Below are positions 937 to 6,603 of a stretch of DNA of 9,392 bases, piece after piece; the stretch's first letter is position 1, and each line of letters opens with the position of its first letter. Source of the DNA: Promethearchaeota archaeon (GTDB lineage Archaea > Asgardarchaeota > Lokiarchaeia > Sigynarchaeales > SOKP01). The DNA lies in contig SDNN01000107.1 in the NCBI GenBank assembly GCA_004524425.1, positions 1 through 9,392 on the forward strand, in the 5' to 3' direction. The notes beneath the pieces were generated by a model. That model was given only the letters and a program-made list of their open reading frames with translations, ran no database searches and was not told where the DNA came from. Position numbers and translations under genes: made by a program.

Positions 937-1506
937 ATGACTGATACAGAAAACGCATTCGTGTTTAAAATCACGGTGATTGGCGATGGGGCAGTAGGTA
1001 AAAATTATCGATAAACGCGATGATTGCCTTTAACAAGCCTCATCAAGAAATACACGAAAGGTAGCTTTGAAAAAGATTATATCAAAACTCTTGGAGCACA
1101 ATTCTCTAAATATGATGAAGAAATAGAAGGTGATAATGTAAAATTATTCTTCTGGGATATTGCTGGTCAGGCAGAGTTCATGTTCATGCGTCCTACGTTT
1201 TATAAGGGATCAAAGGCAGCAATAATCGTCTTTTCACATGCTCCAGATGAAGAAATCAGTTTTGACCACGTAAAAGACTGGCATGATGACATCAAAAAGC
1301 ATTGTGGGGAACTGCCAATTGTATTATTCGGTAATAAAATTGATCTCGTTAATGAAAAGGATTTAGATGATAGAAAATGTGTGAATTTGGTAAAAAAACG
1401 GAAATTTCTTGGTTACTATAAGACCAGCGCAAAGACTGGAAAAAATGTTTATGAAGCATTTCAGGCAATTATTAAGGAATTATATAATAGATATAAAGAC
1501 GCGTGA
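937..1506 (+). CDS. Rab/Ras-like small GTPase, interrupted by a 30-nt putative intron in the P-loop
   Basis: The frame opens at ATG 937 and reads MTDTENAFVFKITVIGDGAVGK, then meets TAA (1012) and TGA (1021). From ACA at 1033 the same frame continues without a stop to TGA at 1504-1506. Removing 30 nt (1002-1031) gives a 179-residue protein with all Ras-family motifs: G1 GDGAVGKTS (16-24), switch I Thr41 in KTLG, G3 WDIAGQ (63-68), G4 NKID (123-126) and G5 SAK (154-156). Length and motif spacing match Rab-type GTPases. There is no C-terminal prenylation cysteine, so any membrane contact must be indirect. Without splicing, only a 25-residue peptide, or a protein restarted at TTG 1024 that lacks the P-loop Gly-Lys, could be made. 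The intact second exon argues against an old pseudogene. It is the first gene of a probable operon with the CxxC and V4R genes. Confidence 0.85.
1002..1031 (+). other. Putative 30-nt archaeal bulge-helix-bulge (EndA-type) intron in mRNA
   Basis: Hand folding gives outer pairs 994-995 with 1033-1034 (2 bp), a 4-bp central helix 996-999/1026-1029 (AGGT with GCCT, one G-U), bulge 1 at 1000-1002 (AAA), an inner helix 1003-1010/1018-1025 (8 bp, one G-U), a 7-nt loop at 1011-1017, and bulge 2 at 1030-1032 (TTA). This is the canonical geometry cut by archaeal tRNA-splicing endonuclease: 3-nt bulges on opposite strands separated by 4 bp. Cuts between the second and third bulge bases fall at 1001|1002 and 1031|1032. 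Joining the ends gives GGT AAA ACA AGC, exactly the G-K-T-S of the P-loop. The insert carries two in-frame stops. The weak point is the outer helix, which is only 2 bp. Shifting the excision to 1003-1032 or 1004-1033 would give the same product. Confidence 0.78.
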
Positions 1507-1808
1507 AACGATTTTCAATAATGTCAAGCAATCAAGAATACCCAAAAATTCTACTCTTCTCATCGAATCATTGTGCACCGTGCAAACCAGTTGAAGAGAT
1601 GTTAAAAAGAATCAATATATCCATGTTTGGAAAAAAGCTCAATATCGAAAAAATAGAAGTGGAAAAAAATCATCAACTTACAAGCAAATATAACGTTACC
1701 TCATTACCAACCATCATAATTGCTGACAAACGATTAAGCGTGAACATTCAAGAAGAGGATATCATTGATGCCATCCTTTATGGGTTCATTTCATCAGTTA
1801 AAATATAA
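1503..1808 (+). CDS. Thioredoxin/glutaredoxin-like CxxC protein
   Basis: This 101-residue protein has a thioredoxin-fold pattern. A strand KILLFSS (15-21) is followed by the redox motif CAPC (24-27) at the head of a helix, with the family's cis-proline in SLPT (Pro69). Such proteins reduce or exchange disulfides in the cytosol; the partner is unknown. The GTG start at 1503 overlaps the TGA stop of the GTPase gene (GTGA), a tight coupling. The alternative start ATG 1521 would give MSSNQEYPK and keeps the whole fold, so the exact start is open. No signal peptide or membrane segment is seen. Its place between a GTPase and a Cys-rich V4R protein suggests that it could act on one of them, which is inference only. 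Confidence 0.75.
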   Translation: MKRFSIMSSNQEYPKILLFSSNHCAPCKPVEEMLKRINISMFGKKLNIEKIEVEKNHQLTSKYNVTSLPTIIIADKRLSVNIQEEDIIDAILYGFISSVKI

Positions 1809-5985: not shown

Positions 5986-6603
5986 CTAAAAATTGAGAAA
6001 ATACCTCTCATGTTCATGATCATATTCCACAATTTTATTTTTAATGAGGGTATCAAGCACGGTTTCCAACCACTGCTTGCTTGTATTTACTTGCGTTTGA
6101 ATTTCATTTAAGCTTAATTCTTCATTAATAGCTAAAAGAAACATGATCTTACTTTTGACCTTGAGATGATTTGATTCAATTACTGTTTCAAATTTTTTTT
6201 CCAAGTCATAAACTTTCATTTTTAACTGGGCCACTTCATTGCTCAACTTAGCAATTACTTCATCTCTAGTTCGAAACACGTTTAAACTAAATTGAAATAT
6301 GCGTTCAAGTTGTTCTTTTAATCGTTTTTCATCATCATACTTGTTGAGTTCCTTATTAAATTCCTCAAGAACTATTAAATAATCATTTCCCTCATCATAT
6401 CTGTCCAGGACTAACACGATGACCATTTCTTTATCTGAATTATAGAATGATACAGAGTTCCAGTCTTTTTCTTCTGTTATTATATAAGATTCAGAAAAAT
6501 TATGAGAAATTTGAATCTGTTGTATGACATTTTCAGGTATTTCCAAATTATCGGGATATTTTAAATATACGGTACCTCCAATAACATCGTCCCATCTTAT
6601 CAA
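5986..6603 (-). CDS. Putative longin-like / coiled-coil / winged-helix protein
   Basis: The 205-residue protein seems to have three parts. Residues 1-88 form an alternating strand-helix domain beginning IRWDDVIGGTVYLKYPDN, with a hydrophobic strand VIVLVLD (61-67). The WDD..G...YP opening resembles archaeal longin/roadblock-like regulatory domains, though I cannot confirm this by eye. Residues about 92-145 are a charged helix rich in heptad-like leucines (KLSNEVAQLKMKVYDLEKKF), likely a coiled coil for dimerisation. Residues about 149-205 resemble a winged helix: KIMFLLAINEELSLNEIQ, TSKQWLETVLDTLIKNKIVEYD, then ERYFLNF as the wing. It could therefore be a DNA-binding regulator with an N-terminal sensor or scaffold domain. 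No strong function can be given. A TATA-like box very close to the ATG suggests a leaderless mRNA. Confidence 0.75.
   Translation of the reverse strand: MIRWDDVIGGTVYLKYPDNLEIPENVIQQIQISHNFSESYIITEEKDWNSVSFYNSDKEMVIVLVLDRYDEGNDYLIVLEEFNKELNKYDDEKRLKEQLERIFQFSLNVFRTRDEVIAKLSNEVAQLKMKVYDLEKKFETVIESNHLKVKSKIMFLLAINEELSLNEIQTQVNTSKQWLETVLDTLIKNKIVEYDHEHERYFLNF

Follow-up and report, generated by a model that had tools for sequence, protein, structure and literature searches.

Bulge-helix-bulge (BHB) introns of archaea are familiar from tRNA genes, and the accessible parts of two reports describe introns in 92-95% of the tRNA genes of three Asgard genomes (PMC11291895) and transposed BHB introns in the tRNA genes of Thermoproteales (PMC4090602). 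For archaeal mRNA, the accessible part of another report names cbf5 as the only BHB case besides an intron in the 5′UTR of HVO_1309 of Haloferax volcanii (PMC7714728). The HVO_1309 intron is an EndA-cut BHB in an mRNA, as predicted here, but it is 46 nt long, lies outside the coding region, was processed in vitro and was found as a circular RNA (PMC7714728, in the same part). The cbf5 intron of Desulfurococcales and Sulfolobales interrupts a protein gene, has a predicted EndA cut between bulge bases 2 and 3 and is present or absent by lineage (PMC2738675, accessible part).

Here we analysed 9,392 nt of a metagenomic contig (SDNN01000107.1; hereafter the window), for which an original prediction made from the sequence had placed a canonical BHB intron of 30 nt in the P-loop of a Rab-like GTPase gene. 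That prediction cited cbf5 as the known archaeal protein-gene case; cbf5 holds as a precedent, to which the HVO_1309 intron has to be added (PMC7714728, accessible part). The Lokiarchaeal introns described below share with cbf5 the traits just listed, but they occur in another phylum and in other genes, at four or more sites rather than one, with two introns in one gene. Their BHBs are canonical, whereas those of cbf5 are mostly unconventional, and their splicing is predicted, whereas that of cbf5 was shown by cDNA (PMC2738675, as far as its accessible text goes). With tRNA introns they have in common the motif and signs of gain and loss, but tRNA is non-coding and has no reading frame to restore (PMC11291895, PMC4090602, likewise in part). 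Among titles and abstract openings of the open literature, a scope outside which preprints and most subscription papers fall, we found no report of a BHB intron within an Asgard coding sequence.

A 30-nt insert splits the P-loop of a Rab-like GTPase

Direct translation from the ATG at position 937 gives MTDTENAFVFKITVIGDGAVGK followed by NYR*TR*LP. The codons GCA GTA GGT AAA (991-1002) are followed by AAT TAT CGA TAA, with the stop at 1012-1014, then by ACG CGA TGA, with the second stop at 1021-1023, and by TTG CCT TTA ACA AGC. Removal of 1002-1031 yields MTDTENAFVFKITVIGDGAVGKTSLIKKY..., the first 93 residues of which are those of the uninterrupted homologue P0001, and reading continues with TSLIKKYT... 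into a 179-aa protein that is 89% identical to P0001. Exon 1 (937-1001, forward strand) would run from the ATG to the AA of the P-loop Lys codon and encodes an N-terminus identical to that of P0001. Exon 2 (1032-1506, forward strand) would hold the remainder of the GTPase, with residues 1-151 of this piece aligning to positions 13-161 of the PF00071 profile.

The gene order of the window, CinA (reverse strand), GTPase, thioredoxin, V4R, ..., TBP, recurs in orthologous loci within the stretches compared. The TBP and CDC48 genes are 95% and 88% identical, respectively, to those of Lokiarchaeota LW40_45, and judged from these two neighbouring genes the window is Lokiarchaeal. A thioredoxin-like ORF (1503-1808, forward strand) overlaps the GTPase stop codon, and this gene pair is conserved together in relatives. 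The ORF finder used a TTG inside the insert (1024-1026, forward strand) as the start of a truncated 160-aa GTPase, P0002, to which the starts of P0101, P0121 and P0122 are similar; it also assigned a TTG start to a gene at 5986-6603 on the reverse strand. No relative was found among viral contigs.

The insert has BHB geometry in the register that restores the protein

The insert at 1002-1031 (all features on the forward strand) is a predicted BHB intron. A central helix of AGGU (996-999) with GCCU (1026-1029) separates a 5′ bulge, AAA (1000-1002), from a 3′ bulge, UUA (1030-1032), with predicted cuts at 1001/1002 and 1031/1032, and inside it lies a stem-loop at 1003-1025 with 8 bp (1003-1010/1018-1025). 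These arms and bulges are all present as originally claimed, and the 30-nt insert with its in-frame TAA and TGA inside the P-loop can be read directly in the window sequence. The outer helix had been described as only 2 bp long, which proved an underestimate: past the 2 bp at 994-995/1033-1034 and a 1x2 internal loop, the exon-1 arm (985-995) and the exon-2 arm (1033-1044) continue with 8 bp of exon-exon pairing (985-992/1037-1044).

The insert sits within the P-loop Lys codon, and the EndA rule, by which each bulge is cut after its second base, removes exactly 1002-1031 and restores GDGAVGKTS in frame, as had been predicted. Three excisions restore the protein, and this one alone has a 4-bp helix with 3-nt bulges. 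The alignment to GTPase homologues proposed as a check agrees, in that the first 93 residues of the spliced product are those of P0001. Coincidence had been considered unlikely, and shuffling bears this out: in this register, a central helix with at least three inner pairs arose in 491 of 200,000 shuffles of the 30 nt (0.25%) and at least eight inner pairs in two of 200,000, and the motif arose in any of the equivalent registers giving the same product in 0.53% of 30,000 shuffled inserts.

Absence of the BHB from the minimum-energy structure of 970-1060 had been named as a result that would speak against the intron. The fold is strong (-25.0 kcal/mol, z -3.78, with 0 of 200 shuffles equally low; z -2.37 when the intron alone is shuffled), but its exact register is slid by one A (A1000-U1025 replacing A1003-U1025, better by 0.1 kcal/mol), and the objection therefore holds in part. 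Literal cutting of the slid fold would excise 29 nt and leave the exons out of frame. We infer that EndA favours the 4-bp helix and hence the unslid register.

Other kinds of intervening sequence do not fit the insert. Group I and II introns are not indicated by an insert of only 30 nt in a window where an Rfam scan gave no match (nor did a tRNA scan), and the in-frame TAA and TGA interrupt the reading frame that an intein would keep. The host gene is a PF00071 Ras gene, which places the insert outside the intron family located in cbf5. As in archaeal BHB introns, two 3-nt bulges and a 4-bp helix lie at the exon-intron borders, the slid form being energetically equal, and cuts between bulge bases 2 and 3 join the exons correctly.

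Metagenomic homologues start at the same intron end

Three protein searches returned 1637, 392 and 337 homologues, and the best 120 of each gave 174 distinct proteins. P0101, P0121 and P0122 begin with xP(L/E)TSLIKK where normal homologues read GKTSLIKK, as P0002 does. Judged from these protein starts, the three begin exactly at the intron end of the window (site A). The Pro codon CCN would be the helix partner required by the GGN codon of exon 1. Detection by this route is limited to carriers with an NTG inside the intron. P0101 is identical to the uninterrupted P0008 and P0009 across 157 residues, and some insertions may thus be of very recent origin.

The four site-A carriers need four changes on a quick tree (173 rows) and three on a careful tree (56 rows, chosen by hand after the quick tree had been seen). 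On the careful tree, a single clade of P0002, P0101 and P0121 is rejected (p-AU 3e-5; the short P0122 was left out). By these trees the site-A carriers do not form one clade. A search of 83 genomes of the class of genome G003 with the pattern RCCNNNRACNWSNYTNATHAARAARTA found no site-A intron, so beyond the window the evidence for this site consists of protein starts. The one match to the pattern, L027, lies in an unrelated gene on the opposite strand and was taken as chance.

Similar inserts occur at other sites in GTPase genes

A homologue search of the same 83 genomes gave at least 54 matches at 70% identity or more in 53 genomes, to which the split gene of genome G028 was added (55 genes, 54 genomes); split genes of the remaining genomes could be absent from the matches listed. 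When the N-terminal regions of the 55 genes were read, 50 were uninterrupted and five had inserts. Together, Lokiarchaeal relatives hold at least seven further predicted introns of 29-31 nt, located in six GTPase genes at three further sites. Site B1, after the AC of a Thr codon, is occupied by 30 nt in L002 (Lokiarchaeota YT5_013), L050 and L124. Site B2, after the G of a Val codon, is occupied in L137 (29 nt), L135 (31 nt) and the paralogue L023 (G002:C82, 29 nt). The L135 gene carries a second intron of 29 nt at site C, the AGQEEFN-FMRP boundary.

Frame can be restored by 3, 3, 3, 5, 5, 5 and 23 excisions of the seven, and in each case a single excision combines the 4-bp helix with 3-nt bulges; this fitting excision gives KITVIGDGAVGKTS or WDIAGQEEFNFMRPTF. 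The 29- and 31-nt inserts additionally shift the frame. For each of the eight GTPase introns, shuffled inserts form the motif in 0.04-0.53% of cases. A B2 covariance model run on 227 genomes of the phylum gave matches of 85-87 nt in known carriers and of 56 nt in empty genes; one weaker long match among those listed, L171, was read and is an ordinary GTPase.

Thermodynamic support varies. In L137 and L050 the BHB is part of the minimum-energy fold; in L135 at B2 it nearly is, in the window it is slid, and in L023, L002, L124 and the site-C intron it is absent. With the intron shuffled, z ranges from -0.28 to -4.32 over the eight and is weak (-0.28 to -1.77) in six. Three-row alignments contain one compensatory pair at B1 and none at B2, values that shuffles match and that are too thin to weigh.

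Several other candidates were set aside: L018 has a poly-A frameshift without an insert, L129 an intact frame, L131 (CDC48-like, G016:C150) one in-frame stop without an insert, L138 an uninterrupted GTPase, and L139-L141 matches at contig ends. In L143 (G035:C27:6200-7400), a distant GTPase with a break at TIGVD-FHVK, two of 61 excisions give a 4-bp helix and the inner stem is irregular; this case is tentative and is not counted.

Presence, absence and co-adaptation of the exon flanks

Sister genes with and without the intron differ by a clean empty site, both for L050 (intron) and L047 (none), at 93.6% DNA identity, and for L137 (intron) and L030 (none), at 92.5%. The 48-nt flanks are less similar to the intronless sister than the remainder of that exon 2 is (p 0.010 and 0.027, uncorrected) and more similar to other carriers (p 0.019, 0.029 and 0.12, uncorrected). 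Applied to three pairs in which neither gene has an intron, the flank test returned p 1, 1 and 0.14. These values hint weakly at transfer of introns together with flanking exon, a signal that pairing constraint could also produce.

Five of seven gene pairs have dN/dS of 0.039-0.089; in window/L003 and L135/L116, dS is saturated. Two of the five measurable pairs compare carrier with carrier (L050/L124 and L002/L124, dS 0.64 and 1.42), and their low ratios suggest that the protein stayed functional while its gene carried the stops, provided that the intron was inherited rather than acquired by a later transfer.

All 50 intronless orthologues show weaker exon-exon pairing at the splice site than the window and the three B2 carriers do, and in the B1 carriers this pairing exceeds that of 47 (L002), 49 (L050) and 45 (L124) of the 50; these comparisons are not independent, because the carriers are related. 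By this measure, the exon flanks are co-adapted to pair.

Candidate introns in rtcB and a dehydrogenase gene

The RtcB match of genome G028 is split, reading ...SPGGVGY, a 29-nt insert with a TGA, and DINCGVRL. This insert (L212:4232-4260, G028:C222, forward strand) has BHB form, with the helix UUGG/CCAA, bulges AUA and ACA and a 9-bp inner stem. One of three motif-restoring excisions fits, as do 114 of 30,000 shuffled inserts, and the two halves match positions 1-46 and 48-426 of the Pfam RtcB profile. The insert is present in one of ten genomes: L067, L187, L188 and L189 are uninterrupted through the motif, which in G003, G029, G030, G001 and G004 is covered by single matches.

The same genome has a 30-nt insert of BHB form in a zinc alcohol dehydrogenase gene (L223, about 1422-1451, G028:C200, reverse strand), at CGICGSD-VHM, with a 4-bp helix, a 10-bp inner stem and an 8-bp outer stem. 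One of eight excisions fits, and the motif arises in 56 of 30,000 shuffled inserts, a value that excludes the selection step, since the insert was picked from a scan list because the protein makes sense. The second half matches PF08240 and PF00107; the first half has no Pfam match.

That list was produced by scanning 479,670 bases of G028, in 40 stretches, for BHB motifs ab initio; the controls were variants with an altered 5′ bulge only. The scan showed no excess in a loose pass (275 candidates; 265, 277 and 300 in controls) or a strict pass (91; 79, 76 and 79), and with at least eight inner pairs it gave fewer candidates than the controls (5; 10, 8 and 7).

EndA- and RtcB-family genes are present in relatives

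PF01974 (EndA family) and PF01139 (RtcB family) exceed the cut-off in all ten relatives searched. Residues were read in the PF01974 proteins L055-L062 and L064; L065 is a fragment, and G028, G035, G047 and G048 are covered by profile match only. Tyr, His and Lys, which we take to be the EndA catalytic residues, are present in five (L055-L059), and four full-length proteins (L060, L061, L062 and L064) lack the His. Genome G003 and the carrier genome G047 have one PF01974 match each, in the score range of the His-lacking, non-catalytic-type group; the one match of G002 is of the Tyr/His/Lys group. Two kinds of subunit would suit the heterotetrameric form of EndA described in the accessible part of PMC6379350.

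Fifteen of the tRNA matches tested in G003 and G030 (L072-L101) measure 93-138 nt, lengths that point to numerous tRNA introns. A strict BHB test gave a 74-nt product for two of these (L091 and L094) and 82-83 nt for two more (L095 and L096), and it found the motif in none of five short matches. Relaxed motifs or crude ends may account for the other long matches.

Discussion

We consider it very probable that 1002-1031 is an mRNA intron of a Lokiarchaeal Rab-like GTPase that would be excised by EndA and sealed by RtcB. The original reading as a canonical BHB intron came through the computational tests (the EndA rule, a shared intron end, the other sites and exon pairing), qualified by the one-base slide and with splicing itself predicted. 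EndA would cut both bulges of the GTPase pre-mRNA, releasing 30 nt, and RtcB would join the exons, restoring the P-loop. If left unspliced, the mRNA would encode a 25-aa peptide and, at best, a GTPase that lacks the P-loop Lys, and splicing would therefore gate a switch protein.

The in-frame stops might instead mark a pseudogene, broken by a neutral insertion and now decaying, and such a case could draw on the youth of some insertions suggested by P0101 and on the window itself being without measurable dN/dS. We regard this as improbable: in every frame-restoring set one excision has a canonical BHB in the correct register, dN/dS is low even between carriers (if the intron was inherited, not transferred later), the exon flanks are tuned for pairing, and the syntenic gene is retained in relatives. 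More doubtful still is that the true product is the truncated GTPase from the insert TTG, a regulator without a P-loop. Four homologues do have an NTG start at this place, but protein databases reveal only copies with such a start, an intact N-terminus is kept in exon 1, and the introns at sites B1, B2 and C interrupt the reading frame at other positions.

Ribosomes reportedly hop across an insert in phage T4 gene 60, and here too the insert is short and contains a hairpin. Bypassing needs matching take-off and landing codons, however, and the TTA before the resumption point does not match the take-off AAA; the exact BHB geometry would also be left unexplained, and we give this explanation hardly any credence. 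An assembly or sequencing artefact, conceivable with metagenomic sources and single contigs, deserves just as little, given that independent sequences from ENA and JGI share one insertion point and that separate genomes have insertions at other sites, always of the same geometry. Of the spliced intron that we favour at 1002-1031, we think it likely that it belongs to a recurrent set of similar introns and is functional.

There is perhaps an even chance that the pattern is general: Lokiarchaeal protein genes would then hold a population of 29-31-nt EndA/RtcB introns, with gains and losses between sister species and with positions in catalytic motifs (the P-loop, GYDINCGVRL of RtcB, CGSDVH of the dehydrogenase), where splicing would gate enzymes. 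With an intron in rtcB, the ligase would need itself for its own mRNA, forming a closed splicing control loop in the archaea closest to eukaryotes.

Archaeal coding-sequence introns have so far rested on one gene, cbf5, in the accessible part of PMC7714728. The set described here spans Rab-like GTPases and the gene of the splicing ligase itself, and archaea probably have more introns in protein genes than the single textbook case implies. If so, some Asgard genes would look truncated or broken only through unrecognised introns, and a multi-site, polymorphic Asgard set would make the gain, loss and function of archaeal introns directly testable.
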